A stretch of 64,000 nt of DNA from Nocardioides sp. (GTDB taxonomy: Bacteria > Actinomycetota > Actinomycetes > Propionibacteriales > Nocardioidaceae). Shown piece after piece: positions 2,811 to 63,566 of the stretch. Position numbers and translations under genes: made by a program. The stretch covers positions 1 to 64,000 of the forward strand of contig NZ_JAOPWY010000038.1 of NCBI RefSeq assembly GCF_025965415.1, given 5' to 3'. Numbering within the stretch: the first letter of the stretch is position 1; each line of letters opens with the position of its first letter. Below the pieces are notes generated by a model, which made no database searches, had not been told where the DNA came from, and worked only from the letters and a program-made list of their open reading frames with translations.

Positions 2811-4301
2811 TCAGTGGGTCGGGTCGGCGATGCCGACGTAGCGGGTCTCGAGGTACTCCTCGATGCCCTCGGCGCCGCCTTCGCGTCCCAGACCGGACTG
2901 CTTGACGCCGCCGAAGGGCGCTGCCGGGTTGGAGATGATGCCGGTGTTGATGCCGAGCATGCCGGCCTCGATCGCCTCGGTCAGGCGCAGGGTGCGGGCC
3001 AGGTCCCGGGTGTAGGCGTAGGCGGCGAGCCCGTACTCGCTGGCGTTGGCCAGCTCGACGGCCTGGGCCTCGGTGGTGAACGTGACGATGGGCGCGACGG
3101 GCCCGAAGATCTCCTCGTTCAGGATGCGAGCTGTGGGCGGGACGTCGCTGATCACGGTCGGGGGGTAGAAGTAGCCGGGACCCTCCGCAGGCGTACCGCC
3201 AGTGATGATCGTGGCGCCGGCTGACCGGGCGTCCTGCACGAGCTGGTGCACCGCTTCGCGGCTCTTGGCGTCGATGAGAGGGCCGATCTGGGAGCCGTCC
3301 TCGGTGCCGCGGCTGACGACGAGCTCACCCATGGCTGCGGCGAGCCGGGCGGCGAACTCGTCGGCCACCGACTCGTGGACGATGAACCGGTTGGCGGCGG
3401 TGCACGCCTCACCCATGTTGCGCAGCTTCGCCTTCATCGCACCGTCGACGGTGGCGTCGAGGTCAGCATCCTCGAAGACGAGGAACGGGGCGTTGCCACC
3501 GAGCTCCATGCTGGTGCGCAGGACCTGCTCGGCGCTCTGGCGGAGCAGGTCTCGGCCCACGGGGGTGGAGCCGGTGAAGGACACCTTGCGCAGGCGCGGG
3601 TCGGCCAGCAGCGGGGAGGTGACGGCGCGGGCGCTCGTGGTGGGGACGACGTTGAGCACTCCGGCCGGCAGGCCGACCTCGTCGAGGATGGAGGTGAGGA
3701 GCAGGGTGGTCAGCGGTGTGAGGTTGGCCGGCTTGAGGACCATCGTGCAGCCAGCGGCGATGGCAGGTGCGATCTTGCGGGTGGCCATCGCGAGCGGGAA
3801 GTTCCACGGGGTGATCAGCAGGCAGGGTCCGACGGGACGCTTGTGGGTCAAGAGGCGGGTCACTCCGTCAGGGGCGACCGAGTAGCGGCCCGCGATCCGC
3901 GGCGCCTCCTCGGAGAACCAGCGCAAGAACTCGGCGCCGTAGGCAACCTCGCCGCGGGCCTCTGCGAGCGGCTTGCCCATCTCGAGGGTCATCAGCAGGG
4001 CGAAGTCGTCGGCGCGGGCGGTGACGGCCTCGAACGTGGCGCGCAGCAGCTCGCCGCGGGTGCGGGGTGCCGTGGCGGCCCAGGCGTCCTGAGCGTCCAC
4101 GGCGGCGGCCAGGGCGGCCTGGCCGTCCTCCGCACTGGCGTCAGCGACGCTGGTCAGCGTCAGGCCGGTGGCGGGGTCCTCGACGTCGAACCTGTCGCCG
4201 GAGGACGACTCGACCCATGTGCCGTCGAGGAAGAGCTGCGTGGGCACCTTGGCCAGCAGGTCGCGCTCGACATCGGTGAGGTGCGACGTGTCGTTGCTCA
4301 T
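2811..4301 (-). CDS. NAD(P)-dependent succinate-semialdehyde dehydrogenase-like ALDH
   Basis: MSNDTSHLTDVERDLLAKVPTQLFLDGTWVESSS..., TPWNFPLAMATRKIAPA, MELGGNAPF, NMGEACTAANRF, PFGGVKQSGLGREGG. Confidence 0.9.
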   Translation of the reverse strand: MSNDTSHLTDVERDLLAKVPTQLFLDGTWVESSSGDRFDVEDPATGLTLTSVADASAEDGQAALAAAVDAQDAWAATAPRTRGELLRATFEAVTARADDFALLMTLEMGKPLAEARGEVAYGAEFLRWFSEEAPRIAGRYSVAPDGVTRLLTHKRPVGPCLLITPWNFPLAMATRKIAPAIAAGCTMVLKPANLTPLTTLLLTSILDEVGLPAGVLNVVPTTSARAVTSPLLADPRLRKVSFTGSTPVGRDLLRQSAEQVLRTSMELGGNAPFLVFEDADLDATVDGAMKAKLRNMGEACTAANRFIVHESVADEFAARLAAAMGELVVSRGTEDGSQIGPLIDAKSREAVHQLVQDARSAGATIITGGTPAEGPGYFYPPTVISDVPPTARILNEEIFGPVAPIVTFTTEAQAVELANASEYGLAAYAYTRDLARTLRLTEAIEAGMLGINTGIISNPAAPFGGVKQSGLGREGGAEGIEEYLETRYVGIADPTH

Positions 4302-5416
4302 GCGTGCAGTCCTTCGAGGTCGATGATCTGGCGAAGTGCCTGACCGGCGGCGAGGCTGTCCATGGCCTTGTTGATGTCGGCCAGCGGGATGGTGTCGGAG
4401 ACGAGAGCCTCCACGGGCAGCCGCGAGTCTCGCCACAGGTCGGCGAAGATCGCGACGTCGCGCCTGGGGACCGCCGAACCGAGGTAGCTGCCCACGATGG
4501 ACCTGCCGCCGGCGACGAGCGCGAGGGGGGAGATCGACGATCGCGCGTCAGGTGCGGGAAGGCCGACGGTGATGGTCGTGCCTCCAGCATCGGTCATCTG
4601 GACCGCGGTCTCGAAGGCTCGGGCGTTGCCGGCCGCTTCGATGACGATGTCGGCCCGTATGTCGCCCTCGAGTGCCTCGGCGGGGGAGTAGGTGGCTGCT
4701 GCGCCGAGCTTCTCGGCCTGGCGGAGCTTGGTGTCGACCCCGTCGACGCCGATGACCTCGACACCGTCCACGGCGAGCGCGGTGAGCAGTGCCGCCATCC
4801 CGACTCCTCCGAGCCCGACCACGCACACCCGCTGGCCCGGCTTGGGGCGCGCGGCGTTGAGGACGGCGCCGCCGCCGGTGAGGACCGCGCATCCGAGCAG
4901 CGAGGCGACGGGTGCGGGGACGTCATCGCCCACGGCGACGACAGAACGTTCGTCGACCACGGCGTGCGAGGCGAAGGCTGAGACGCCGAGGTGGTGGTGC
5001 ACGGTCTCGGTGCCGCGCCGCAGACGGATGCCACCGTCGAGGAGCGCGCCGCGCTCGTTGCTGGCGCTGCCGCGCACGCAGGGGCGGATTCCTTGGGTGG
5101 CGCAGCCGGAGCACTCCTCGCAGCGGGGGAGGAACGTCATGACGACGCGCTGGCCCGGGCGCAGGGTGCGCACCTGGGCGCCGACCTCCTCCACGATGCC
5201 GGCGCCTTCGTGTCCCAGCAGCATGGGTACGGGTCGGCGTCGATTGCCGTCCACGACCGAGAGGTCGGAGTGGCACACACCGGCCGCCTCCATCCGCACC
5301 AGCACCTCGTGGGGCCCGGGCGGGTCGAGCTCGAGCTCGGACACGACGAGAGGGTTGCTGTCGACGAAGGGGGTGGGGTCGCCGATTCGTTCGAGGACTG
5401 CTCCGGTGATGCGCAC
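4298..5416 (-). CDS. zinc-dependent alcohol dehydrogenase (MDR family)
   Basis: GTG start with upstream GGAAGGAAA; GVCHSDLSVVDG, GHEGAGIVEEVG, CEECSGC, GLGGVGMAALL; overlaps downstream ALDH start. Confidence 0.9.
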   Translation of the reverse strand: MRITGAVLERIGDPTPFVDSNPLVVSELELDPPGPHEVLVRMEAAGVCHSDLSVVDGNRRRPVPMLLGHEGAGIVEEVGAQVRTLRPGQRVVMTFLPRCEECSGCATQGIRPCVRGSASNERGALLDGGIRLRRGTETVHHHLGVSAFASHAVVDERSVVAVGDDVPAPVASLLGCAVLTGGGAVLNAARPKPGQRVCVVGLGGVGMAALLTALAVDGVEVIGVDGVDTKLRQAEKLGAAATYSPAEALEGDIRADIVIEAAGNARAFETAVQMTDAGGTTITVGLPAPDARSSISPLALVAGGRSIVGSYLGSAVPRRDVAIFADLWRDSRLPVEALVSDTIPLADINKAMDSLAAGQALRQIIDLEGLHA

Positions 5417-5469
5417 CGATGTTTCCTTCCTGCAAGCCGCGCGGCAGATGCCCTGCGGAGGTGGATGGG

Positions 5470-7143
5470 TCACGTGAGGGGCGAGGCAGCCTTCATGGGT
5501 GGGCTGGCGGCCTCGGGCGACGATGGCGTCGACGGGTCCGCAGCGCCGGCGCCGGGGGCTGCATGGGTGCTCGATCCGGGCTTGGTCTTGAGCTCGAAGC
5601 GGCGGATCTTTCCGGATCCGGTGCGGGGGATCTCCGACACCTCCACGATCCGCGACGGGACCTTGAAGTAGGCGAGGTTCTCGCGGCACACGGCAAAGAC
5701 CGCTTCGTGGTCCAGCGGCTGACCCGACGTGGCCACGATGAAGGCGACCGGCACCTCGCCGAGGTCGCGGTGGGGCTCGCCGACCACCGCGACGTCCTCG
5801 ACGCCCGGGCAGCTGAAGATCACGGTCTCGATCTCGGCCGGGGCGATGTTCTCCCCGGCTCGGATGATGAGCTCCTTGACGCGTCCGGTGATGGTGACGA
5901 ACCCGTTGGGGTCGCGTCGCCCCAGGTCTCCGGTCCGGTACCAGCCGTTGGTCAACGATGCCGCAGTCGCTTCGGGCAGCCGGTGGTAGCCGAGCATCAC
6001 GTTGGGTCCTTGCACCCACAGCTCGCCCTCCTCGCCGGCAGGCACGTCGCTCCCACTGGCATCCACGAAGCGAACCGACACGCCGGGAAGCGGTACGCCG
6101 CACGAGCCGGGGACTCGCCCGCCGCGGGGGGCGTTCATCGTCACCATGGTCGAGGTCTCGGTGATGCCGTAGCCGTCGAGGAGCGGCACGCCGGCGTAGT
6201 CGTCGAACTCCTCGTTGAGGCTGCCCGACATGATGGCTCCGGCCGAGATGCACAGGCGCAGGTCCGGGGCGTGCAGCCTCCCTGCTTCCGAGCGGCTGTT
6301 CAGCAAGTACTGGAACATCGTCGGGACGCCAGGGAAGACCGTGACTCCGTCGCTCGCGAGTCGAGCGGCGACGTCACGCGGGGAGAACTTGGGGAGCAGC
6401 GTGGCACGGGCCCCCGCGGCGGTGACTCCGACGACCGAGAGCACGAGGGCGTAGGAGTGGAACAGCGGCAGGCACGACAGCAGGTGGTCGTCGGAGCTCA
6501 GCTCCGCGATGGGGATCCAGCAGGCCGCCACCACCCACAGGCACCCGCGCTGGGTCAGGTGAACGCCCTTGGGCCGCCCGGTCGTGCCGCTGGTGTAGAG
6601 CATCCAGCAGCAGGTGTCGAGGTCGGTGTCGTCCGGGGCCGCGGCCTGTGGGTCGCGCGCGAGCAGGGCGTCGTACCCCACGAGCCGGACGTCCGGCGGC
6701 AGTTCCACGGTGCCGGACAGGTCGGGGTCGTCACCGGTCACGAGCACGGTACGGATGTCCAGGGAGCCTGCTCGGATGCTGGCCAGCATCGCGGGAAGGT
6801 GGGCGGTATCCACCACGGCCACAGTCGCTGAGGAGTTCTCGGCGATGTAGGTCAGCTCGGGCACGGTGGCCGTGGGGTTGGCGCAGACGGTGACGACGCC
6901 TGCGCGCGGGGCGACCAGGTAGCCCTCGACCACCTCGACGGAGTTGTCGAGGTAGAGCAGCAGCGAGTCGCCGTCGGCCATGCCGAGGTCGACGAGGTGA
7001 CCGGCCAGCGTGGCAGTCCGCGCCTCGAGCTGTGCGTAGGTGAGGCTCTGGCGGGTGTCTGTGTACGCCACGTGGTCCGGGCGGTTGGCGGCGTGTGCCG
7101 CCAGAAGCTTCGGCACGGTGGTGATGACGGAGGTGTCGATCAT
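5470..7143 (-). CDS. AMP-binding acyl-CoA synthetase/ligase
   Basis: MLYTSGTTGRPKGVHLTQ, GYGITETSTMV, YRTGDLGRRDPNGFVTITGRVKELI, GKIRRFEL. Confidence 0.92.
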   Translation of the reverse strand: MIDTSVITTVPKLLAAHAANRPDHVAYTDTRQSLTYAQLEARTATLAGHLVDLGMADGDSLLLYLDNSVEVVEGYLVAPRAGVVTVCANPTATVPELTYIAENSSATVAVVDTAHLPAMLASIRAGSLDIRTVLVTGDDPDLSGTVELPPDVRLVGYDALLARDPQAAAPDDTDLDTCCWMLYTSGTTGRPKGVHLTQRGCLWVVAACWIPIAELSSDDHLLSCLPLFHSYALVLSVVGVTAAGARATLLPKFSPRDVAARLASDGVTVFPGVPTMFQYLLNSRSEAGRLHAPDLRLCISAGAIMSGSLNEEFDDYAGVPLLDGYGITETSTMVTMNAPRGGRVPGSCGVPLPGVSVRFVDASGSDVPAGEEGELWVQGPNVMLGYHRLPEATAASLTNGWYRTGDLGRRDPNGFVTITGRVKELIIRAGENIAPAEIETVIFSCPGVEDVAVVGEPHRDLGEVPVAFIVATSGQPLDHEAVFAVCRENLAYFKVPSRIVEVSEIPRTGSGKIRRFELKTKPGSSTHAAPGAGAADPSTPSSPEAASPPMKAASPLT

Positions 7144-7152
7144 GGTGGCTCC

Positions 7153-7174
7153 CTAACTAATGAGTGTTAGTTAG
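7153..7174. promoter_or_regulatory. palindromic operator CTAACTAA-TGAGTG-TTAGTTAG (site 1)
   Basis: Perfect 8-bp inverted repeat with 6-nt spacer, between divergent acyl-CoA synthetase and TetR genes; matches two other sites in window. Confidence 0.75.
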
Positions 7175-7271
7175 TTGCAGCATAACCAGCGTCCCATGGT
7201 TTGACCAGACCCCCTCCCCCGACGACGCAGACGCGGCCGGGTGTTGCTGCAACGCGATCGGTGTCGGCCGC

Positions 7272-7277
7272 TACTCT
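7272..7277 (+). promoter_or_regulatory. putative -10 box TACTCT for leaderless tetR
   Basis: TACTCT-N6-ATG (7284). Confidence 0.5.
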
Positions 7278-7283
7278 CGCGCC

Positions 7284-7943
7284 ATGGTCCTTCCCGGCAA
7301 TCCTCCCATCGGTCGAGACGACCGGGCCGCGGTGTCCCCGTCCGCGGTGCTCGACGCCGCGCTGACCGTGTTCGCCGAGCGCGGCTACCACGGGACGTCG
7401 GTCAAGGAGATCGCCCTGCTGCTGAAGATCCGCACGCCCAGCCTGTACAACCACATGACCTCCAAGCAGGGCCTGCTGGAGGAGATCATCGGCTCCACCA
7501 GCCGTGGGGTCTGGGCGGACTTCCAGGCCGCGGTGGACGGCAAGGACGATGTCAGCACCCGGCTGCACGACGCCGTGTACGTGTACGCGCTGCGGCACGC
7601 CACGAGACGACGCGAGGCCGTGGTGGTCAATCGCGACATCTCCAGCATCGAGGAGCCTGCCCGCACGGACATCCTGGACCTGCGCCGCCGGCATGAGCAC
7701 GGGGTCCGCGCGTTGGTGCAGGAAGGTATCGACGCCGGGGTGTTCATGGACCAACCGGCGTCACTGGTCTCCTTCGCGATCCTCGAGATGTGTGTCTCGA
7801 TCGCTCGGTGGTTCCACCCCGGTCTGGCCTTCACCGCCGAGGACGTGGCCGAGCACTACAGCCGCTACGCACTGCGCATCGCGCGCGGCGAGCAGGATGT
7901 CGACGGATCCGATGTCAGCGGATCGGCCCCTGCACCATCCTGA
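7284..7943 (+). CDS. TetR/AcrR family transcriptional regulator
   Basis: SPSAVLDAALTVFAERGYHGTSVKEIALLLKIRTPSLYNHMTSKQGLLEEI HTH. Confidence 0.92.
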   Translation: MVLPGNPPIGRDDRAAVSPSAVLDAALTVFAERGYHGTSVKEIALLLKIRTPSLYNHMTSKQGLLEEIIGSTSRGVWADFQAAVDGKDDVSTRLHDAVYVYALRHATRRREAVVVNRDISSIEEPARTDILDLRRRHEHGVRALVQEGIDAGVFMDQPASLVSFAILEMCVSIARWFHPGLAFTAEDVAEHYSRYALRIARGEQDVDGSDVSGSAPAPS

Positions 7944-8556
7944 CGGCCTGGGTCGCGAAGTTGCGTGCGACGTCCTCCGCGGTGAAGTCGCCGCCCTCGT
8001 GGAACCAGCGCGCCGCGCTCACGCACATCTCGCGGATGGCGAAGGAGGCGAGCTTGGCCGAGGGCACGTCGAACAGGCCGCTGTCCACGCCGTCGCTGAT
8101 GATCTGACGGAACCGGCGCTCCTGGAAGCGCCGTAGTGACTGGGCGCGGCTCAGGTCGTGCTCGGGCAGGTGCCGCGCGTCCTGGTTGACCACGAGCGCC
8201 TCGCGGCGGTGGACGGCGTGGCGCAGCGCGTAGGCGTACGTCGCGGCGTAGAGCCGGTCATGCAGGTCGACGTGGGCCTCGATCGCCTCCTCGAGCTCGG
8301 CCCCCACGTGCGCCAGGGTCTCGAACACGATCTCGACGAGCAGGTCGGACTTGGCCTCGATGTGGTTGTAGAGGCTGGGTGCCCTCAGGCCGACGGCGTG
8401 TGCCACGTCCTTCAGTGAGGTCCCGTAGTAGCCCCGCGTCGCAAAGAGCGTGAGAGCGGCCTCGAGGATGTCGGACCGCGTGACGGGACTCAGCCCCGAG
8501 GCGCGCCGATCGAGTCGCGCGGCCGCGCCGTCCTGCTCCTGCGCCAGCTCCTTCAT
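7915..8556 (-). CDS. TetR/AcrR family transcriptional regulator (paralog)
   Basis: TRSDILEAALTLFATRGYYGTSLKDVAHAVGLRAPSLYNHIEAKSDLLVEI; GGAAGGG upstream of ATG at 8556. Confidence 0.92.
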   Translation of the reverse strand: MKELAQEQDGAAARLDRRASGLSPVTRSDILEAALTLFATRGYYGTSLKDVAHAVGLRAPSLYNHIEAKSDLLVEIVFETLAHVGAELEEAIEAHVDLHDRLYAATYAYALRHAVHRREALVVNQDARHLPEHDLSRAQSLRRFQERRFRQIISDGVDSGLFDVPSAKLASFAIREMCVSAARWFHEGGDFTAEDVARNFATQAVRMVQGPIR

Positions 8557-8627
8557 GTCTGTGCCCTTCCGCTGCAAGTCGACTCGGCCCCGGGGTTGAC
8601 GTGACAGGCATCACCCCTCAGAGTGTG

Positions 8628-8649
8628 CTAACTAATGCACGTTAGTTAC
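8628..8649. promoter_or_regulatory. palindromic operator CTAACTAA-TGCACG-TTAGTTAC (site 2)
   Basis: 7-bp arms TAACTAA/TTAGTTA, 6-nt spacer; three nt downstream of a TTGACG-N17-CAGAGT promoter-like element (8596-8624). Confidence 0.75.
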
Positions 8650-8664
8650 CGAGAGGATACCCCG

Positions 8665-9015
8665 ATGTCCCGACCAAGCACCACCTCAGAACCGGACTGG
8701 GCGGCCATTGCGCAGCGTTCTGACTTCCAGCAGCTGGTGGCTCGTCGCCGCCGGTTCGTCGTGTCCGCACTGAGCTTTGCCGCGATCTGGTTCGGCGGGT
8801 TCTTGCTGATGACCTCCTATGCGCACGGGTTCATGCAGCAGCTGATCGTGCCCGGGTTGTCGGTCGCCTACGTGCTGGGCTTCTCGCAGTTCGTCATGAT
8901 CTGGGTCCTGACGGCCCTGTACCTGCGCTCGGCCGGCGGGACGTTCGACGAGCTGGAGCGAGGCGTGGTCGCGGGCGCCGGCTACCGGCACGCCACGGCG
9001 GGAGTCGACGCATGA
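8665..9015 (+). CDS. DUF485 family membrane protein
   Basis: DFQQLVARRRRFVVSALSFAAIWFGGFLLMTSYAHGFM; directly upstream of an SSS symporter as in YjcH-ActP pairs. Confidence 0.85.
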   Translation: MSRPSTTSEPDWAAIAQRSDFQQLVARRRRFVVSALSFAAIWFGGFLLMTSYAHGFMQQLIVPGLSVAYVLGFSQFVMIWVLTALYLRSAGGTFDELERGVVAGAGYRHATAGVDA

Positions 9016-10571
9016 ACCTCACCCGGCTCTTCTTCTTCGGTGCCATCTTGGCCATCACGATCGGCATCACGATCTGGGCCTCGCGCCGCACCAGCACGAC
9101 CAGCGAGTTCTTCGCCGCTGGCCGCTCGGTCACCGGCCGGCAGAACGGGCTTGCCATTGCTGGCGACCTGATGTCGGCGGCAACGTTCCTCGGGTTCACC
9201 GGCCTCATCTACCTCGCCGGCTTCGACGGTTGGGTACTGGCGACGGCAGCCATCTTCTCGTTCCTGCTCATCTTGATGCTGTTCGCCGAGCGCATGCGCA
9301 ACGCCGGTCAGTACACGATGGCCGACGTGCTGTCGTTTCGGCTCTCCCGGCGCCCGGTGCGTGCCGCGGCCGCCAGCACGACGCTGGTGGTCGTGGTCTT
9401 CTACCTGATCGCCCAGCTGGTCGGAGCCGGTGTGCTCATCCGCGCACTCACCGGCCTCGACTTCACGGTGGCGGTCATCCTGACCGGCGCCGCCATGCTG
9501 GCCTACGTCGTCTTCGGGGGCATGCTCGCCACCACGTGGGTCCAGATCGTCAAGGCCGCCATGCTGCTCGCCGTGGGTGCTGCGATGTGCGTGTTCATCC
9601 TGTGGCAGTTCCACTTCAACGTCTTCGAGCTCTTCGACACCGCCGCCTCCAGGCACCCACTGGGAGACAACTACCTCGGCCCGGGCGGGTCCAACCCGAA
9701 CCCGCTGAACACACTGTCGGCCGGGCTCGCCTACGCGATCGGGACGGCCGCGCTGCCGCACATCCTGATCCGGTTCTTCACCGTCCCCGACGCGCAGGCT
9801 GCCCGACGTTCGGTCGGGTGGGCAGTCGGCCTCATCGGCGTCTTCTTCGTGATGACCTCGATCATCGGCTACGGCGCACGTGCCTTGTTGCCGACCGGGT
9901 CCGAGGAGGCCACCGCAGGCGGCAACCTCACCGCTCCGCTGCTGGCCCAGCACCTGGGCGGCGGCGAAGGGACCTTCGGTGGCGACGTGTTCATCGCCCT
10001 GGTCAGCGCCGTCGCGTTCGCGACCATCCTCGCGGTCGTCGCCGGACTGCTGCTCTCGGCGTCCGGCGCCATCTCCCACGACCTGTGGTTCAACGTGTTG
10101 AAGCCGGACGCCAGTGCAGCGGAGCGCGAAGGCACGACCGTGGCGCGTGTCGCCGCCCTGGCCGTCGGCGTGGTCGCGGTCGTGCTGACCATCGCCCTGG
10201 GCGACTCGCTCAACGTCGCCCTGCTGGTGGGACTCGCGCTCTCGATCGCAGCGAGCGCGAACTTCCCGGCTCTGGTCCTGTGCCTGGCCTGGCGCAGGTT
10301 CAACACCGTCGGCGCACTCGTGGGCATCTTCGGGGGTCTCATCGCATCGGTGACGCTCATCATCCTGGGACCGCAGGTCTGGCCTGGCGGACCCGAGGCT
10401 GCACCGTTCCCCCTCACGTTCCCGGTGCTGGTGTCGATCCCGGTCGGCTTCGCCTGCTGCGTCCTCGGCACGCTGCTGAGTCCGCGACGCGTGGAGGACG
10501 AGCAGACCTACTACGAGCTGCTCGTGCGGTCGCAGACCGGCATCGGCGCCGAGGCGCCCACCGCACACTGA
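9012..10571 (+). CDS. sodium:solute symporter family protein (ActP-like cation/carboxylate symporter)
   Basis: SEFFAAGRSVTGRQNGLAIAGDLMSAATFLGFTGLIY, many TM helices. Confidence 0.9.
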   Translation: MNLTRLFFFGAILAITIGITIWASRRTSTTSEFFAAGRSVTGRQNGLAIAGDLMSAATFLGFTGLIYLAGFDGWVLATAAIFSFLLILMLFAERMRNAGQYTMADVLSFRLSRRPVRAAAASTTLVVVVFYLIAQLVGAGVLIRALTGLDFTVAVILTGAAMLAYVVFGGMLATTWVQIVKAAMLLAVGAAMCVFILWQFHFNVFELFDTAASRHPLGDNYLGPGGSNPNPLNTLSAGLAYAIGTAALPHILIRFFTVPDAQAARRSVGWAVGLIGVFFVMTSIIGYGARALLPTGSEEATAGGNLTAPLLAQHLGGGEGTFGGDVFIALVSAVAFATILAVVAGLLLSASGAISHDLWFNVLKPDASAAEREGTTVARVAALAVGVVAVVLTIALGDSLNVALLVGLALSIAASANFPALVLCLAWRRFNTVGALVGIFGGLIASVTLIILGPQVWPGGPEAAPFPLTFPVLVSIPVGFACCVLGTLLSPRRVEDEQTYYELLVRSQTGIGAEAPTAH

Positions 10572-10585
10572 GCCGGGCAGTCGCG

Positions 10586-10622
10586 GCGAGGCCGAGCGAG
10601 CTGTTGGCTCGCTCGGCCTCGC
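10586..10622. terminator. strong hairpin, putative bidirectional terminator
   Basis: GCGAGGCCGAGCGAGC-TGTTG-GCTCGCTCGGCCTCGC, perfect 16-bp stem, 5-nt loop, between convergent genes. Confidence 0.8.
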
Positions 10623-10704
10623 TGGCGTTCGTCGCTGCCGACCGCTGACTGGTGGGTGGGACGCCGCAGGCCCGGGGACCAAGGTCCGGGACCCGAGCCC
10701 GGTC

Positions 10705-11166
10705 TCACGCCTGCGACTGGGCCTCTAGCTCGCCCAGGGGGCCGCGCAGGTCCTCGGGGATGGGGACGGTCGACTTGGCGGTGCGGTCGATGTAGACGTG
10801 GACCCACCGACCAGTGGCCGCGGCGGTGAGGGTCGGGTCAGGTCGTTCTCCGTCGAAGATGCCGATCTCGTAGACGACGCTGGAGTTGCCCAGGCGCTGG
10901 ACGCGCAGGCCGACGGTGACGTACCCGGGGAAGCTGAGCTCGGAGTGGAAGCGGCACGCCGACTCGGCCACGACCCCGATGACGGCCTTGTGGGCGAAGT
11001 CGCCGCCGGTGTGCTCGGCGATCCAGGTGTTGATCGTGGTGTCGAACAGCTCGTAGTACTTGGCGTTGTTGAGGTGTCCGTACATGTCGTTGTCGGACCA
11101 TCGCGTCAGGTGCGTCATGCGCACTGGGAAGGCCGACAGCGGACGCGGAGAAGGTTCGGTGCTCAT
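10705..11166 (-). CDS. acyl-CoA thioesterase (4-hydroxybenzoyl-CoA thioesterase/hotdog family)
   Basis: TRWSDNDMYGHLNNAKYYELFDTTINTWI motif. Confidence 0.88.
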   Translation of the reverse strand: MSTEPSPRPLSAFPVRMTHLTRWSDNDMYGHLNNAKYYELFDTTINTWIAEHTGGDFAHKAVIGVVAESACRFHSELSFPGYVTVGLRVQRLGNSSVVYEIGIFDGERPDPTLTAAATGRWVHVYIDRTAKSTVPIPEDLRGPLGELEAQSQA

Positions 11167-11182
11167 AGGACCTCTTTCGTTG

Positions 11183-11211
11183 TTGACACCTCGTGACGAC
11201 CGGCATAGTGT
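11183..11211 (+). promoter_or_regulatory. sigma70-type promoter TTGACA-N17-TAGTGT
   Basis: -35 TTGACA at 11183-11188, -10 TAGTGT at 11206-11211, upstream of coxG operon. Confidence 0.75.
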
Positions 11212-11213
11212 CA

Positions 11214-11235
11214 CTAACTAACGCTCATTAGTAAA
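11214..11235. promoter_or_regulatory. palindromic operator CTAACTAA-CGCTCA-TTAGTAAA (site 3)
   Basis: Matches sites 1 and 2; covers expected transcription start of the coxG operon. Confidence 0.72.
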
Positions 11236-11245
11236 GGAGAGACCG

Positions 11246-12031
11246 GTGCACCTCAGTAACACCTTCACCGTCAGCCTCCCCGTGGACCAGGCCTGGGCCA
11301 CGTTCCTCGACCTAGAACGCATCGCCCCCTGCCTGCCTGGCGCGGCGATCACTGATGTGGACGGCGACTCCTTCGAGGGCGGCGTCAAGATCAAGGTGGG
11401 ACCGATCTCCGCGCAGTACCGCGGCACCGGGACCTTCGTGGAGAAGGACGAGGCGGCGCATCGCGTGACCATCTCGGCCAAGGGCAAGGACGTCGGCGGT
11501 CAGGGAAACGCCGAGGCCACCATCGTGGCGACCCTGAGCCCCCAGGGCGATGGGACGCAGGTCAAGGTCGACACCGACCTCGACCTCTCCGGACGAGTGG
11601 CGCAGTTCGGCCGCGGGGTCATCAGCGACGTCACCGGACGGCTGATGACCCAGTTCGCCAAGAACCTCGAGGCCGAGATCAACGCCGGTTCGCTCGGCGC
11701 CGACGCCGAAGCTCGCTCGCAGGGCACCTCCGATGGCGAGTCCAAGCCGCGTCCGCGCCAGTCCCTCGACGACGTCGAGCCCCTCGATGTCGTCGGCAGC
11801 ATGGGTGACCTCGTGGCCAAGTACGCCCTTCCCGCGGCCGGTGCCCTCGTCCTTGCCGGGCTGGGTGTGGTCCTGCTGGGTCGCAAGAGCCGTGCCGGCA
11901 CCGCTCCGTTCGCCGGAGGCTTCGGTGGCGGGTTCGGAGGCGCTCCTGTCAACATCTTCCTCACCCTGCCCGCCCCTCTTCTCGCACCTGGCACCTACCC
12001 GGTCCTCCCTGACCTGCGAGTCGTCTCGTGA
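11246..12031 (+). CDS. coxG: CoxG-like SRPBCC protein (carbon monoxide dehydrogenase subunit G family)
   Basis: NTFTVSLPVDQAWATFLDLERIAPCLPGAAI...GGVKIKVGPISAQYRG; C-terminal TM segment. Confidence 0.88.
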   Translation: MHLSNTFTVSLPVDQAWATFLDLERIAPCLPGAAITDVDGDSFEGGVKIKVGPISAQYRGTGTFVEKDEAAHRVTISAKGKDVGGQGNAEATIVATLSPQGDGTQVKVDTDLDLSGRVAQFGRGVISDVTGRLMTQFAKNLEAEINAGSLGADAEARSQGTSDGESKPRPRQSLDDVEPLDVVGSMGDLVAKYALPAAGALVLAGLGVVLLGRKSRAGTAPFAGGFGGGFGGAPVNIFLTLPAPLLAPGTYPVLPDLRVVS

Positions 12032-12831
12032 GCACCATCAAGGTCGGCAACATCGCCGTCACGCCGCTGCTGGACGGCACTGGTCGCGAGTGCGCCCGGG
12101 ACGTGCTCCAGCGCGATGGCGACGCCAGCGCGTGGGACGAACACCCCGGAGAGACGGACGCCGACGGCGACCTGCGCCTCACCCTGGGTGGGTTCCTGGT
12201 GCGCACCGCAGACCGCGTGGTGCTGGTCGATGCGGGCGTCGGCACCATCGACAACGGCCGCTACCGAGGCGGACTGCTGCTGGAGCAGCTGCGCGAGCAG
12301 GGCCTGGACACAGGCGACGTCACCGACGTCGCCTTCACCCACCTGCACTTCGACCACGTCGGTTGGGCCACCCAGAAGGGCCAGGTCGTCTTCGAGAACG
12401 CCACCCACCACGTCCACTCTGCCGACTGGAACTTCTTCGTCGAGGACGTCGACAGCGACCCGGGGGCGGTGCGCAAGCTCGCTCCGCTCCAGGCACGCCT
12501 CGACCCGTTCGACGCCGGCAAGACACTGGCGCCCGGCCTCGATGCGCGACCCGCGGTGGGGCACACCCCCGGCTCGACGGTGTACGTGATCTCCGACGGG
12601 GGCGAACGACTGGTCCTGCTCGGCGACCTGGCGCACCACCCCCTCGAGCTCACCCAGGACGGATGGAGCTTCCACTTCGACCACTCGAAGGAGCAAGCGT
12701 CCGCCTCGCGTCGCGAGATCGTCGAGGAGTTCGCCGACACCGAGACGCTGCTGGCCGCTGGCCACTTCCCCTACCTGCGCCCCGGACGGCTCGCCGCCTC
12801 GGGCGATTCCCTGACCTGGAACACCCTCTGA
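12028..12831 (+). CDS. MBL-fold metallohydrolase
   Basis: TDVAFTHLHFDHVGW, GHTPGS, LLGDLAHH. Confidence 0.88.
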   Translation: MSTIKVGNIAVTPLLDGTGRECARDVLQRDGDASAWDEHPGETDADGDLRLTLGGFLVRTADRVVLVDAGVGTIDNGRYRGGLLLEQLREQGLDTGDVTDVAFTHLHFDHVGWATQKGQVVFENATHHVHSADWNFFVEDVDSDPGAVRKLAPLQARLDPFDAGKTLAPGLDARPAVGHTPGSTVYVISDGGERLVLLGDLAHHPLELTQDGWSFHFDHSKEQASASRREIVEEFADTETLLAAGHFPYLRPGRLAASGDSLTWNTL

Positions 12832-12844
12832 AGGAGAGACACAC

Positions 12845-13612
12845 ATGGACCTGAAGCTTCACGGAAAGAACGTGCTGGTCACGGGGGCCGGCAAGGGACT
12901 CGGTGCCGCCATCGGCCTCGCCTTCGCCCAGGAAGGCGCCAACGTCGCCTTCCACTACAACTCCTCTTCCGAGGGCGCCGAGAAGGCGGCCGCGCAGGCA
13001 CAGGAGCTCGGCGTCCAGGCCATCGCTGTCGGAGCCGACCTCACCGACCCGGCAGCGGTCACCGCCGCGGTGGACGACGTCAAGGAACGCCTGGGTGCGA
13101 TCGACATCCTCATCAACAACTCCGCTGCCACCCAGAGCAAACCGTTCCTGGAGACGACCGAGGACGACTGGGCACCCCAGATCGGGGTCACCGTCACCGG
13201 CACGCTCCGCGTCACCCAGGCCGTGGCCAAGCAGATGGTCGAGGCGGGCGTACAAGGCTCCATCGTCAGCCTCATGGGCGACTCCGGCCGCGTCGGTGAG
13301 TCCCGCCTCCTGGTGACCGCGACCACCCGGTCCACGACCGTCGGGCTGACCAAGTCGCTGGCCAAGGAGCTGGCACGCCACAAGATCCGCGCCAACGCGG
13401 TCTCGATCGCCCTGGTGCAGACGGGCAGCCTGGCCGAGCACACCGGCAACGCCGACGAGGAGAAGATGAAGCGCATCCTCTCGGCCTACCCGCTGCGTCG
13501 CCTCGGCACTCCCGAGGACGTCACCCCCACCATCCTGCTCCTCGCCTCCGACCTGTCGTCGTGGACCACTGGCCAGATCCTTTCGGTCAACGGCGGCTAC
13601 GCGATGCCATGA
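12845..13612 (+). CDS. SDR family oxidoreductase
   Basis: VLVTGAGKGLGAAIGLAFAQEGA, NNSAATQ; C-terminal SVNGGYAMP. Confidence 0.9.
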   Translation: MDLKLHGKNVLVTGAGKGLGAAIGLAFAQEGANVAFHYNSSSEGAEKAAAQAQELGVQAIAVGADLTDPAAVTAAVDDVKERLGAIDILINNSAATQSKPFLETTEDDWAPQIGVTVTGTLRVTQAVAKQMVEAGVQGSIVSLMGDSGRVGESRLLVTATTRSTTVGLTKSLAKELARHKIRANAVSIALVQTGSLAEHTGNADEEKMKRILSAYPLRRLGTPEDVTPTILLLASDLSSWTTGQILSVNGGYAMP

Positions 13613-15954
13613 GCAGCACTCGAGGCGCCACCGACCATGACGCACCCACCGGTGCGAAGGGACGCACCGTCCCCCGCAAGGAGGACCTGCGACTGATCAC
13701 CGGGCGAGGAAACTTCGTCTCGGACATCGAGCTGCCGCGCATGAAGCACGTCGCGTTCCTGCGTAGCCCGTACGGCCACGCCCACGTCACCGGCCGCGAC
13801 ACGAGTCGCGTCGGCGATGCGGCAGACGCCGTCTTCACCGGCGCGTCCCCGGAGTTCCAGGACATCTGCCTGCGAGCCCTCTCGGCGCTGCCGACCTACA
13901 TCGAGACCCCGCAGCCGCTCCTGGCCAGGGACAAGGTCCGCTTTGCCGGCGAGCCGGTGGCCGCCGTCGTCGCCGCCGACCGCTACCGCGCCGAGGACGC
14001 GCTCGAGCTCATCGACATCGACTACGACCCCTTGCCGGCCACCGTCACCGCGTGGCACAAGCCTGAGGTGCCCGTCCACGACGAAGCACCCGACAACGTG
14101 CTCCTTCAGCGCGAGTTCGAGGCCGGCGACGTCGACCAGGCGTTCAAGGACTCAGCCGTGGTGGTGGAGCGTGAGCTCACCACCAACCGCCACGCGGGCA
14201 ACCCGATGGAGTGCCGCGCCGGGGTTGCCCTGTGGGACCGCACGGGGGAGAAGCTCACCTTCTGGTCCGGCACCCAGGTCCCGCACCTGGTCCGCAACAT
14301 GGTGGCCGAGCTGCTCGGCATGTCCGAGGGCAACGTTCGCGTGATCGCCCCCGACGTGGGAGGCGGGTTCGGCACCAAGGCCGTGCTGTACCCAGAGGAC
14401 GTCGCACTGTGCGTGATGGCGCGGACCATGCCGGGCACGGCCCTGAAGTGGGTCGAGGACCGCAGTGAGCACCTGCAGGCTGCCGCTCACGCCCGCGACC
14501 ACCGCTACCTGATGAAGGTCGGGTTCTCCGAGGAGGGCAAGATCACCGCCGTCCAGGGTGACATCACCTGCAACATCGGCGCGTACTCGGTCTACCCCTG
14601 GACGGCCGGCATCGAACCGCTGATGGCAGGCGGCCTGCTCACCGGCCCCTACATGGTCGACAACTACCGGTGCGTCACCCGCGGGGTCACCACCAACACC
14701 GCCTACGCCGGCCCGTACCGCGGCGTCGCTCGCCCGGCCACGGTCTTCGCGATGGAGACGATGCTGAACCTGGGGGCTGCCGAGCTCGGCCTGACCGATC
14801 TGGAGATCCGCCGGATCAACCTCATCCCCGAGGACGCGATCCCCTACCGGATGCCGTCACGGCTGGTCGACGACTCAGGCTGGTACTCCCGCGCCCTGGA
14901 GCAGTGCGTCGAGACCATCGGCTACGACGACTTCCTCGTCGAGCAGCAGCGACGCAAGGACGATGACGAGAACCCCATCGGCATCGGGTTCGCCTGCTAC
15001 AACGAGCTCACCGGCCTCGGCCGCGCGGCCGCGGCCGGCCCCCGGATGCCGTTCCGTACGGGTCACGACGCGTGCACGGTGCGCGCCGAGATCGACGGAA
15101 GCATCACCGTGCAGTCCGGTGTGACCAGCCAGGGTCAGGGCCTGGAGACCACCATGGCGCAGGTCGTCGCGGACGCCGTCGGCGTCGACTACGACGACGT
15201 CAACGTCCGCATCGGCGACACCAACGAGTCGCTGTGGGGCTTCGGTGCGTTCTCCTCGCGCCAAGCCGTCATCGGCGGCGGCGCCGCCCACACCAGCGGC
15301 GAGGCGCTGCGCGAGCAGATCCTCAAGCTCGGAGCAGCGGTCTACGAGCTCCCCCAAGAGGAGCTCCGCATGGAACGCGGACGAGTGCTGCACACCGTCA
15401 AGGGCGACATCGGCAGCCTCGCCGAGCTCGCCCGTATCGCCTACATGGAGTCCAACCGGCTCCCGCCCGGGTTCGAGCCCGGCCTGCAGGTCACCCGGTT
15501 CTACGACCCCATCCGCGGGGCGTTCTCCGCCGGCGCCCAGGTCGCGATCATCGAGGTCGAGAAGAGCTCAGGCATGCTCAACATCCTCAAGTGGGTGTGC
15601 GTCGAGGACGCCGGCAACGTGATCAACCCTCAGGTCGTCGACGGTCAGATCGCCGGCTCCATCGCCCAGGGTCTCGGCGGCACCATGTACGAGCACCTGG
15701 TCTACGACGAGCGCGGCAACCTCAGCACCGGCACCCTGCTGGACTACCTGATGCCGACCAGCCACGAGGTCCCTGAGCTCCACATCGGCCACCTGTCCAA
15801 GCCCGCCGACAACCCGCTCGGCGTACGCGGTGTCGGCGAGGGCGGGACGCTGGGCCCGAACGCGGTGGTGGCCGGCGCCATCCACAACGCCCTCTCGGTC
15901 GAGATGCGACACCTGCCGATCACGCCGGGCCGAGTCTGGGAGGCCATCCAGTGA
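13609..15954 (+). CDS. xanthine dehydrogenase/CoxL-family molybdopterin-binding large subunit
   Basis: VPRKEDLRLITGRGNFVSDIELPRMKHVAFLRSPYGHA, GGGFGTKAVLYPEDV, GPYRGVARPATVFAMET, GVGEGGTLGPNA. Confidence 0.92.
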   Translation: MSSTRGATDHDAPTGAKGRTVPRKEDLRLITGRGNFVSDIELPRMKHVAFLRSPYGHAHVTGRDTSRVGDAADAVFTGASPEFQDICLRALSALPTYIETPQPLLARDKVRFAGEPVAAVVAADRYRAEDALELIDIDYDPLPATVTAWHKPEVPVHDEAPDNVLLQREFEAGDVDQAFKDSAVVVERELTTNRHAGNPMECRAGVALWDRTGEKLTFWSGTQVPHLVRNMVAELLGMSEGNVRVIAPDVGGGFGTKAVLYPEDVALCVMARTMPGTALKWVEDRSEHLQAAAHARDHRYLMKVGFSEEGKITAVQGDITCNIGAYSVYPWTAGIEPLMAGGLLTGPYMVDNYRCVTRGVTTNTAYAGPYRGVARPATVFAMETMLNLGAAELGLTDLEIRRINLIPEDAIPYRMPSRLVDDSGWYSRALEQCVETIGYDDFLVEQQRRKDDDENPIGIGFACYNELTGLGRAAAAGPRMPFRTGHDACTVRAEIDGSITVQSGVTSQGQGLETTMAQVVADAVGVDYDDVNVRIGDTNESLWGFGAFSSRQAVIGGGAAHTSGEALREQILKLGAAVYELPQEELRMERGRVLHTVKGDIGSLAELARIAYMESNRLPPGFEPGLQVTRFYDPIRGAFSAGAQVAIIEVEKSSGMLNILKWVCVEDAGNVINPQVVDGQIAGSIAQGLGGTMYEHLVYDERGNLSTGTLLDYLMPTSHEVPELHIGHLSKPADNPLGVRGVGEGGTLGPNAVVAGAIHNALSVEMRHLPITPGRVWEAIQ

Positions 15955-16685
15955 TCGTCTCGACCGATCTCGGTGAGCAGCTGTGGCAGCTGTCCATCGA
16001 CCGCCACGACCGGCGCAACGCCCTCGACATCGACCACCTCGACCAGCTGCACGACCAGTTCGCCGCGGCGCTCCACGCCGGTGCCCGGTGCGTGGTCGTC
16101 ACCGGTGAGGGAACGACGTTCAGCGCTGGCGCAGACCTCGACAGCGTCTACGACGACACCTTCACGACCGCTCTCTACCGCACGCTCGGAGCGATCACCG
16201 ACGCCCCCGTCCCGGTCATCGCCGCCATGAACGGACCTGCCGTTGGTGCCGGCGCGCAGCTCGCCATCGCATGCGACCTACGCGTCGGCGGCGACCGGGC
16301 GTTCTTCACCATCCCCACCGCCCGCAACGGCCTGGCCGTCGACAGCTGGACCATCCGACGGCTCGCCCTGCTGACCAACGGCGCCGTGGCCCGCAACCTG
16401 CTCATCGGCGCCGCCACGCTCACTGTCGACCTCGCCCGACAGCTCGGTCTGATCGGGCGGGCCGGCGGCCTCGACGAGGCCATCGCGTGGGGCCGCGACA
16501 TCGTCTCCATGGCACCCCTGAGCCTCGCGCACAGCAAGCGTGCCCTCGAGGTGCTGCTCGAACCAGACGTCGACGGCGCCGCAGAGCTCGAGAATCTCTT
16601 CGATGAGTGCTGGGCCAGCGACGACGTCGCTGAAGGCCGCTTGGCGCGCACCGAAGGCCGCACGCCCGTCTTCGAGGGAAAGTGA
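15951..16685 (+). CDS. enoyl-CoA hydratase/isomerase family protein
   Basis: DRHDRRNALDIDHLDQLHDQF, FSAGADLDSV, MNGPAVGAGAQLAIACDLRV. Confidence 0.9.
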   Translation: MIVSTDLGEQLWQLSIDRHDRRNALDIDHLDQLHDQFAAALHAGARCVVVTGEGTTFSAGADLDSVYDDTFTTALYRTLGAITDAPVPVIAAMNGPAVGAGAQLAIACDLRVGGDRAFFTIPTARNGLAVDSWTIRRLALLTNGAVARNLLIGAATLTVDLARQLGLIGRAGGLDEAIAWGRDIVSMAPLSLAHSKRALEVLLEPDVDGAAELENLFDECWASDDVAEGRLARTEGRTPVFEGK

Positions 16686-16692
16686 GACACCG

Positions 16693-17538
16693 ATGAAGGC
16701 CGCTCCATTCGACTACGTCCGCGTGGACAGCATCGCCGGATGCGTCCGGGCGCTGCAGGAGGCCGACGGCGACGGCAAGATCATCGCCGGCGGCCAGAGC
16801 CTGGCCCCTGTCCTGGCGATGCGCCTGGCACGGCCCTCCCTGCTGGTCGACATCAACCGCATCCCCGGCATCGCGGCCATCGAGCACCGCGACGACGAGC
16901 TCAGAATGGGCGCCCTGGTCCGCCACGCCGACCTGCTCGAGCAGCAGCACTCACCGCTCCTGGCCGCGGCAGCCAGGTGGATCGGCCACCCCGCCATCCG
17001 CTCCCGCGGAACACTGGGCGGCAGCATCGCTCACTCCGACCCCAGCGCCGAGTGGCCGGTCGTCGCAGCCGCGCTGGAGGCGAGGCTGACCGTCCACGGC
17101 CCATCGGGATCACGCGAGGCCGCTGCCGGCGACTTCTTCCTCGGGCCCCTCGAGCCCGACCTGCAGACCGACGAGGTCCTGGTCCGCGTCGACATGCCGA
17201 TCCCCGAGGCATGGGGCTTCGCCGAGCTCTCCCGTCGCCATGGAGACTTCGGGCTCGTCATGGCCGTCACCGCTCAGGTCCACGGCACGTGGCGCGTGGC
17301 GATCGGTGGGATCGCCGGTGTGCCACTGCGCGTGCCCGAGGCCGAGGCGCTGCTCAACGACACCACGAGCCCCGAGAACGTTCGGGCAGCGGCGCAGGCG
17401 GCTGCCGCGGCCGTCAGTCCCGGCGACGACCTCCATGCCTCGAGCCGGTACCGCAGCGCCATGGTCGAGGAGTATGCGCACCGCTCGATCACCCAGGCAC
17501 TCACCCAAGCCACCGCTCGCCCGGTAGGAGTCAGCTGA
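16693..17538 (+). CDS. FAD-binding subunit of molybdenum hydroxylase (CoxM-like)
   Basis: IIAGGQSLAPVLAMRLARPSLLVDINRI, AIRSRGTLGGSIAHSDPSAEWP. Confidence 0.92.
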   Translation: MKAAPFDYVRVDSIAGCVRALQEADGDGKIIAGGQSLAPVLAMRLARPSLLVDINRIPGIAAIEHRDDELRMGALVRHADLLEQQHSPLLAAAARWIGHPAIRSRGTLGGSIAHSDPSAEWPVVAAALEARLTVHGPSGSREAAAGDFFLGPLEPDLQTDEVLVRVDMPIPEAWGFAELSRRHGDFGLVMAVTAQVHGTWRVAIGGIAGVPLRVPEAEALLNDTTSPENVRAAAQAAAAAVSPGDDLHASSRYRSAMVEEYAHRSITQALTQATARPVGVS

Positions 17539-18131
17539 TGCAGGTCAACATGTCAGTCAACGGCACCCACGCCACCGTCGACGTCGAGCCACGCAGGACC
17601 CTCGCCGATGCGCTCCGCGAGGACCTCGGCCTGACCGGGACCCACCTCGGCTGTGAGCACGGCGTCTGCGGCGCCTGCACCGTCATGGTCGACGGGCAAC
17701 CCGTTCGCGCCTGCCTGATGTTCGCTGTGCAGGCCGACGGCGCCTCCGTCACCACCATCGAGGGCCTCGCCTCCGACAGCGGCGAGCTGCACGCCGTACA
17801 GAAGGCGTTCTGCGACAAGCACGGCCTGCAGTGCGGCTTCTGCACCCCTGGCATGCTCATCTCTGCGCTCGACCTGCTGCACCGCGAGGAGAAGCCTTCA
17901 CGCGAGCGGATCCGCGAGGAGATGTCCGGAAACATCTGCCGCTGCACCGGCTACGTCGGCATCGTCGACGCCGTGGAGCAGGCCGCCCAGGAGCTGGCCG
18001 ACTGGAACAACGCCGGTCCCAGCGACACCACCGAGGACTCGACCGACGTCGCCAGCGCCGGGCAGACGGAGGACGCTGGCACGCCTGGACGAGGCGCCCA
18101 CGTCCACACAAGCTCGACAGGGACCGCGTGA
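17538..18131 (+). CDS. [2Fe-2S] subunit of molybdenum hydroxylase (CoxS-like)
   Basis: GTHLGCEHGVCGACTVMVDGQPVRAC, LQCGFCTPGMLISA, GNICRCTGYVGIVDAV. Confidence 0.93.
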   Translation: MQVNMSVNGTHATVDVEPRRTLADALREDLGLTGTHLGCEHGVCGACTVMVDGQPVRACLMFAVQADGASVTTIEGLASDSGELHAVQKAFCDKHGLQCGFCTPGMLISALDLLHREEKPSRERIREEMSGNICRCTGYVGIVDAVEQAAQELADWNNAGPSDTTEDSTDVASAGQTEDAGTPGRGAHVHTSSTGTA

Positions 18132-62343: not shown

Positions 62344-62379
62344 GGGGCCGTGGCCACGTCGCGGTACGCTGGTGACGAA

Positions 62380-62467
62380 GACAGGGGAGCGCGCGCAGGC
62401 GTGCTGAGAGTGCGGACCAGCCGCAGACCCTATGAACCTGATCCGGTTAGCACCGGCGATAGGGAGT
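62380..62467 (+). ncRNA. TPP riboswitch (THI element)
   Basis: GGGGAGC...GCTGAGAGTGCGG...CCGCAGACCCTATGAACCTGATCCGGTTAGCACCGGCGATAGGGAG; followed by thiamine transporter gene. Confidence 0.93.
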
Positions 62468-62471
62468 CACC

Positions 62472-63566
62472 ATGCGTCAACCACCCGTCCGCGCTGCCCT
62501 CACGACGGCGCTCGCCGCGCTGGTGCTGAGCGCCTGCAGCCTCATCTCCAGTGGCGAGCCGTCGGAGCCGTCGACCTCGGCGGCCGACGGGGAGCCCGGG
62601 GGCACGTCCGGGGGCACGTCCGGGGGCACGGTCGTGCTCGCCACCCACGACTCCTTCCACCTGCCCAAGAGGCTCGTGAAGGCGTTCGAGGAGGAGTCCG
62701 GCTACGACCTCGAGGTGCGCGGCTCCGGTGACGCCGGGACGCTCGCCACCAAGCTCAGCCTCACCGCCGACAACCCCGTCGCCGACGCGGCCTTCGGCAT
62801 CGACAACACCTTCGCCTCCCGCCCGCTGGGCGAGGGCGCCTTCGCCGAGACCACACCGTCGGTGGACCCGCCGGAGGAGTACGCCCTCGCCGAGGGTGGC
62901 GACCGCCTGGTCCCGATCGACTCGGCGAGCGTCTGCGTCAACGTCGACACCGCCTGGTTCGACCGGGAGGGGATCGAGCCGCCCCGCACGCTGGCCGACC
63001 TCACCGACCCGGCGTACGCCGACCTGCTGGTGACCCCCGGCGCCTCGACGAGCAGTCCCGGCATGGCCTTCTTCCTCGCCACCGTCGCGGAGTACGGAGA
63101 CGACTGGGAGACCTACTGGACCGACCTGCTGGCCAACGGCGCCAAGGTCGTCGACGGGTGGGAGGACGCCTACTACGGCGACTTCACCGCAGGCTCGAAG
63201 AACGGCACCCGCCCGATCGTGGTGTCCTACGACTCCTCCCCGGCCTTCACGGTCACCGACGGGAGGACGACCACGGCGGCGCTCCTCGACACCTGCTTCC
63301 GCCAGGTCGAGTACGCCGGCGTCCTCGCCGGCGCCGACAACCCCGAGGGTGCGCAGGCGCTGGTCGACTGGATGCTCAGCGACGAGGTCCAGAGCGCGCT
63401 GCCGGAGTCGATGTACGTCTTCCCGGTCATGCCCGGCGCGACGGTCCCCGACGACTGGGCGACCTTCGCCCCGCAGCCCACCGACCCCTACGAGGTCTCG
63501 CCCGAGGAGATCGCCGCCCACCGCGAGCAGTGGCTGACCGAGTGGACCGACGTCATCTCGCGATGA
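62472..63566 (+). CDS. thiB: thiamine ABC transporter substrate-binding lipoprotein
   Basis: LSACSLISS lipobox; VVLATHDSFHLPKRLVKAFEEESGYDLEVRGSGDAGTLATKLSLTADNPVADAAFGIDNTF; downstream of TPP riboswitch. Confidence 0.92.
   Translation: MRQPPVRAALTTALAALVLSACSLISSGEPSEPSTSAADGEPGGTSGGTSGGTVVLATHDSFHLPKRLVKAFEEESGYDLEVRGSGDAGTLATKLSLTADNPVADAAFGIDNTFASRPLGEGAFAETTPSVDPPEEYALAEGGDRLVPIDSASVCVNVDTAWFDREGIEPPRTLADLTDPAYADLLVTPGASTSSPGMAFFLATVAEYGDDWETYWTDLLANGAKVVDGWEDAYYGDFTAGSKNGTRPIVVSYDSSPAFTVTDGRTTTAALLDTCFRQVEYAGVLAGADNPEGAQALVDWMLSDEVQSALPESMYVFPVMPGATVPDDWATFAPQPTDPYEVSPEEIAAHREQWLTEWTDVISR

Follow-up and report, generated by a model that had tools for sequence, protein, structure and literature searches.

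A conserved palindromic element and a pair of TetR-family regulators in a catabolic gene cluster of Nocardioides sp.

Organisation of the locus

The stretch of DNA analysed here, referred to as the window, comprises 64,000 nucleotides of Nocardioides sp. (contig NZ_JAOPWY010000038.1, positions 1 to 64,000) and contains a catabolic gene cluster (2811-18131), belonging to a rare degradation pathway of soil bacteria, with two TetR-family regulator genes, tetR-A and tetR-B, encoded mid-cluster (Table 1). A first-pass annotation had reported three near-identical palindromes in this region, each in one of the cluster's three divergent gene-start regions. All three are present, differing from CTAACTAA-N6-TTAGTTAG by zero (7153-7174), one (8628-8649) and two (11214-11235) mismatches, and the gene map agrees with the described placement, as the CoA-ligase/tetR-A, tetR-B/DUF485-symporter and thioesterase/CoxG gaps hold one site each. 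Comparison with related loci makes it very probable that these palindromes are the operators of a dedicated TetR repressor system.

Table 1. Palindromes, predicted promoters and genes of the catabolic cluster
Feature	Position	Strand	Remarks
Putative operator 1 (CTAACTAATGAGTGTTAGTTAG)	7153..7174		10 bp upstream of CoA-ligase start (minus strand), 4 bp downstream of its -10 box
Putative operator 2 (CTAACTAATGCACGTTAGTTAC)	8628..8649		16 bp upstream of DUF485, 51 bp upstream of tetR-B
Putative operator 3 (CTAACTAACGCTCATTAGTAAA)	11214..11235		11 bp upstream of CoxG, 48 bp upstream of thioesterase gene
Predicted CoA-ligase operon promoter	7179..7207	-	TGGTCA (7202-7207)-N17-TATGCT (7179-7184)
Predicted DUF485-symporter promoter	8596..8624	+	TTGACG (8596-8601)-N17-CAGAGT (8619-8624)
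Predicted CoxG operon promoter	11183..11211	+	TTGACA (11183-11188)-N17-TAGTGT (11206-11211)
TetR A	7284..7943	+	TetR_N + TetR_C_24; recognition helix RTPSLYNHM; candidate repressor
TetR B	7915..8577	-	Paralogue of TetR A; recognition helix RAPSLYNHI
Aldehyde dehydrogenase (ALDH)	2811..4301	-	Pfam Aldedh 7e-162
Zinc-dependent alcohol dehydrogenase (ADH)	4301..5401	-	Pfam ADH_N 7e-23
AMP-binding acyl-CoA ligase (ACS)	5470..7143	-	First of ACS-ADH-ALDH operon; Pfam AMP-binding 6e-86; orthologues in most related loci
DUF485 membrane protein	8665..9015	+	Pfam DUF485 3.5e-23
Sodium:solute symporter, monocarboxylate/acetate type	9012..10571	+	MctC/ActP-like, below curated cut-off
4HBT acyl-CoA thioesterase	10705..11166	-	Divergent from CoxG; Pfam 4HBT_2 3e-15
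CoxG, metallo-beta-lactamase (MBL)-fold hydrolase, short-chain dehydrogenase/reductase (SDR)-like protein, molybdenum (Mo) hydroxylase large subunit, enoyl-CoA hydratase (ECH), FAD and 2Fe-2S subunits	11246..18131	+	Presumed target operon of operator 3

The palindromes are confined to this cluster. At up to three mismatches no fourth match is found in the window, 100 dinucleotide shuffles of which yield none, and no match beyond the three sites is found anywhere in the genome assembly (195 contigs totalling 4.2 Mb; completeness 95%, contamination 5.5%); nor does the refined 16-bp core, ACTAAYGNNCRTTAGT, have any further genomic match at up to two mismatches. This genome-wide uniqueness is that given by mismatch searches rather than by a position weight matrix (PWM) scan. 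A motif common and unrelated across the genome, which had been put forward as grounds for discarding the proposal, was therefore not what the scan revealed. The 92 sites collected from related loci define the full element as an inverted repeat of 22 bp, CTnACTAACG-nn-CGTTAGTnAG, whose two halves flank a 2-bp centre. The arms are thus shared as first described, but the intervening six nucleotides are not a free spacer, because its outer bases are themselves conserved (position 9 is approximately 68% C and 26% T, and position 10 is 78% G).

Conservation of the element across related loci

Thirty-five related loci were fetched from public genomes through TetR homologues, using C-terminal peptides, and were combined with the plasmid loci L007 and L008. 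A PWM seeded from the window's core, and trained on the same loci that it scores, gave 152 raw matches at a score of at least 12, compared with 6 in a reversed-sequence control and 2.6 expected by shuffling. A direct mismatch search using the pattern found in the window is the fairer test, because the matrix had been trained on these loci; it identifies sites in most of them, against 5 matches in an equal-length shuffled control.

At least one site is present in 37 of the 38 TetR-bearing loci (the 37 related loci and the window), and the operator-bearing genera are Nocardioides, Aeromicrobium, Rhodococcus, Nocardia, Pseudonocardia, Actinomycetospora and Amycolatopsis. Seventy-eight of the 85 strong sites lie within 120 bp upstream of the start of a cluster gene or a tetR gene, and none falls inside a mapped cluster gene. 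Throughout Nocardioides, Aeromicrobium, Rhodococcus and Nocardia the element precedes the CoA-ligase gene by 10-15 bp, CoxG by 10-12 bp and DUF485 by 16-72 bp, while Pseudonocardia carries it before CoxG, DUF485, MBL or CoA-ligase genes and often 20-120 bp before tetR; outside Nocardioides more generally, tetR genes are often also preceded by an operator. The probability that the repeats are non-regulatory, representing a mobile element, hairpin terminators or a chance repetition, is negligible: perfect palindromes can form hairpins, but these repeats are short, A+T-rich and situated at gene starts, with no copies elsewhere, and their position 10-20 bp before starts is kept across divergent genera.

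Among 99 relatives from the same order no convincing operator was detected, the only candidate being one weak two-mismatch match, and 298 genomes of the order contained no TetR homologue at 1e-35 except the window's own pair. A separate instance was observed on a plasmid of Rhodococcus opacus PD630 (L008:10969-22097), where a B-type TetR and the same operator stand beside different catabolic genes; the switch may have been re-used there for another set of catabolic genes.

Position relative to predicted promoters

In the window a single gene start follows each site at a distance of 10-16 bp, and a predicted -10 box precedes the site by 2-4 bp, placing it over the expected transcription start. 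This arrangement recurs in related loci. The -10 box, operator and start codon of the CoA-ligase gene are similarly laid out in L009 and L010; the symporter -35 hexamer TTGACG is kept in L007, L009, L010, L032, L034 and L037; and the spacing of the -35 box, N17, -10 box and operator before CoxG is kept in these same six loci and in L039, such that the eight loci including the window share the layout TTGACN-N17-TAnnnT, 1-2 bp, operator, 10-12 bp, start codon. Because the operator covers the expected transcription start, a bound repressor should block RNA polymerase. A few TetR-family proteins do activate transcription, FasR being a named activator in NCBIfam, but an activating role here is given little credence, because a protein bound past the -10 box and over the expected start, as it would be here, normally blocks transcription.

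The position of each site at a -10 box that points one way, next to a gene start, implies that each operator serves mainly one promoter. Three promoters, those of the CoA-ligase, DUF485-symporter and CoxG-Mo-hydroxylase operons, are clearly covered. The thioesterase gene (48 bp from its site) and tetR-B (51 bp) are possibly affected as well, while tetR-A, which is 110 bp from the nearest site and has a possible -10 box (TACTCT, read by eye) a few bases before its ATG, is probably not controlled. The suggestion in the first-pass annotation of up to six divergent units was hence an overstatement.

The symporter promoter has a further feature. Between its -35 and -10 boxes is a CRP/GlxR-like palindrome, GTGA-N6-TCAC (8601-8614), which is the sole copy in the window and is exact at the same promoter in L007, L010, L032, L034 and L037. 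At other gene classes it occurs only where these are divergent from the symporter promoter, plus one other match. This distribution suggests CRP/GlxR-type carbon control of uptake in the Nocardioidaceae and Nocardiaceae.

The two TetR proteins

TetR A and TetR B, which are 48% identical, belong to the TetR family: both match TetR_N (PF00440; 5.5e-13 for A, 8.2e-11 for B) and TetR_C_24 (4e-27 and 8e-27), and the helix-turn-helix, the two-domain all-helical fold and the palindrome near the regulator's own gene and its targets are all found. The model of TetR A has nine helices with a predicted local distance difference test (pLDDT) score of 89, and superimposes on 3vpr with a template modelling (TM) score of 0.88 by target length. 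Among solved structures this one, PfmR, is closest to both proteins in sequence and to TetR A in fold, and the structural neighbours of TetR A also include KstR2 and AibR. The matches to named TetR equivalogs in NCBIfam all score well short of the curated cut-offs, the best reaching 49-52 bits where 250 are required, and the proteins do not qualify as KstR2 or AibR equivalogs. The genes themselves are convergent, with 3' ends that overlap (7915-7943).

Within the family the recognition helix TPSLYNH is near-invariant, with an entropy of 0.06 bits compared to 1.19 in the C-terminal ligand domain, and this is not an artefact of the search, because the loci were fetched with C-terminal peptides. 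Two well-supported clades emerge from a phylogeny of the proteins: A, with members from the Pseudonocardiaceae and Nocardioidaceae, and B, with members from the Nocardiaceae and Nocardioidaceae. Clusters with A-type proteins only, B-type proteins only and both all use one operator, although the single-type labels are limited by incomplete contigs. As the helix is also near-invariant, both types probably bind this shared operator.

The B protein of the window itself may be a weaker binder or a non-binder, since a residue of its helix has changed and its branch is long. In a variant of the repressor model TetR A alone represses, TetR B being either in decay or re-specialised; this is doubtful but carries appreciable weight. 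The helix RAPSLYNHI departs from the family's RTPSLYNHM, the branch length is 0.8, and many clusters of the Pseudonocardiaceae have A-type proteins only; yet the Nocardia and Rhodococcus clusters have B-type proteins only with the same operator, and paired regulators recur in three arrangements, namely A+A in tandem (Pseudonocardia), B+B (Rhodococcus) and convergent A+B (Nocardioidaceae), which speaks for the second copy being retained because it is used. A bolder proposal, that paired paralogous TetRs on one operator are a repeated and selected design, would have the two proteins form a heterodimer, or each sense a different pathway intermediate, on the same sites, giving AND/OR logic at every promoter and in some lineages layered on the CRP/GlxR-like site of the transporter promoter. 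This is regarded as rather unlikely. A literature search on paralogous TetRs sharing an operator found nothing useful.

Comparison with known regulators

The 16-bp consensus selected for PfmR (TTHB023) of Thermus thermophilus by REPSA (restriction endonuclease protection, selection and amplification), (a/c)Y(g/t)A(A/C)YGryCR(g/t)T(c/a)R(g/t) (PMC7022988), is palindromic and fits the core ACTAAYGNNCRTTAGT in register. Against 93 site cores it has 0-4 mismatches in 16 positions, in the centred register only, compared to around 9 for random 16-mers from the same loci. The regulators of the window are PfmR-like in operator recognition, judging from these sequences, but are not PfmR orthologues, because identity is only about 30% and PfmR targets fatty-acid genes; the PfmR helix, SKAALYHHF, also differs from RTPSLYNHM.

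This fit bears on whether the palindromes might be bound by an unrelated regulator encoded elsewhere, with the adjacent TetRs having other targets. Other TetR genes do exist in the genome, none of those found exceeding 33% identity, but the site tracks the cluster TetRs across genera, precedes tetR genes in many loci, matches the PfmR consensus and is missing in relatives without these TetRs, making such an arrangement very improbable. That the operator follows the TetR homologues through at least seven genera, agrees with the PfmR consensus and is absent elsewhere in the genome instead upholds the original proposal of a local TetR-controlled regulon.

A literature search on the half-sites CTAACTAA and TTAGTTAG found no regulator paper, while a search on CGTTAGT led to TTHA0973 and BkaR. 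The former is PaaR of T. thermophilus, a member of the TetR family that regulates a gene cluster of phenylacetate (aromatic acyl-CoA) metabolism and has the element CNAACGNNCGTTNG (PMC6651687), which is contained in the window operator; the comparison is one of elements, and the pathway genes differ. The TetR regulon of mycobacterial BkaR (Rv2506) is also local and autoregulated, and its palindrome is of the GTTA/TAAC type (PMC3920632), but the core, GTTA-N-T-N4-A-N-TAAC, has another base order and the genes controlled are those for branched-chain keto acids. Similar in layout is MbdR of Azoarcus sp. CIB, a local TetR repressor whose palindromic operators span the starts of several catabolic promoters and whose inducer is the first CoA thioester (PMC4424350), although its operator is ATAC-N10-GTAT and its pathway that of anaerobic 3-methylbenzoate degradation. 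KstR2 and AibR are acyl-CoA-responsive TetR repressors of catabolic regulons, with HIP-CoA and isovaleryl-CoA as effectors; they are fold neighbours of TetR A but have 21-25% identity to it and serve different pathways.

Proposed mechanism

Under the repressor model, dimeric TetR A (and/or TetR B) would sit over the transcription starts of three promoters, those of the CoA-ligase, DUF485-symporter and CoxG-Mo-hydroxylase operons, excluding RNA polymerase. Uptake and activation of the pathway acid would supply its CoA thioester, or a neighbouring intermediate, as ligand for the TetR_C_24 domain, and the ligand-bound repressor would leave, turning on the three operons together. The effector is probably a pathway acyl-CoA, by analogy with the fold neighbours KstR2 and AibR and with MbdR; the earlier suggestion of an acyl-CoA or related effector is likewise plausible from the structural neighbours PfmR, KstR2 and AibR.

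Several observations weigh against this interpretation. A simple promoter scan returned no promoter at its threshold, such that the assignments of -35 and -10 boxes rest on conservation and spacing. The PWM was scored on its own training loci, although the mismatch search with the window's pattern already finds sites in most loci. One locus, L027, has two TetR homologues but neither a site nor the cluster in the stretch examined. Finally, the TetR B of the window has drifted, with the helix change being from T to A.

The system is a well-conserved but conventional on/off switch. It provides a confident assignment of operator and regulator for an apparently mobile pathway that is widely shared among actinobacteria, and the repressor offers a handle, through inducer screening, for finding the pathway substrate. 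The sharing of one operator by A-only, B-only and A+B clusters offers a natural experiment on the retention of paired repressors in bacteria.

Substrate and mobility of the cluster

The gene order of the CoxG operon is kept in L007, L010, L037 and others. The cluster encodes a CoA ligase, a thioesterase, an ECH-family protein and a Mo hydroxylase of three subunits, a set that resembles, by published description, the hmfABCDE furoate route, in which a three-subunit Mo-dependent furoyl-CoA dehydrogenase, a CoA synthetase, a thioesterase and HmfE are described and no lactone hydrolase has been assigned (PMC6678421). The MBL protein of the cluster weakly resembles lactonases. A furoate-like substrate is accordingly a guess. 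Auxin (iad) degradation was also considered, because a conjugative plasmid of Bradyrhizobium elkanii (L048:4028-16153) carries a paralogous set of ECH, FAD, FeS, MBL, Mo, SDR and CoA-ligase genes, with a different regulator and CoxG nearby, but was dropped; the published iad pathway begins with a Rieske oxygenase. A Paraburkholderia match of the Mo subunit has a different gene context.

A syntenic cluster is found on a mobilizable plasmid of Rhodococcus koreensis. The TetR pair and operator are missing from the sampled relatives in the order, and the cluster as a whole appears to be absent from close relatives among them; together with the plasmid copy this makes it likely that the cluster has been horizontally acquired or spread, with the caveat that the 5.5% contamination of the assembly could concern this contig.

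The SDR-family protein (12845-13612) lacks the catalytic Tyr and Lys, TxxxR replacing YxxxK. These residues are also missing in its orthologues wherever the segment was extracted, while a GDSGRVGES signature is conserved. Elsewhere in the window, degenerate tandem repeats of 66/69 bp at its start (3-1258) suggest a repeat protein, and a thiamine pyrophosphate (TPP) riboswitch (RF00059, 62 bits) is located at 62373-62482.

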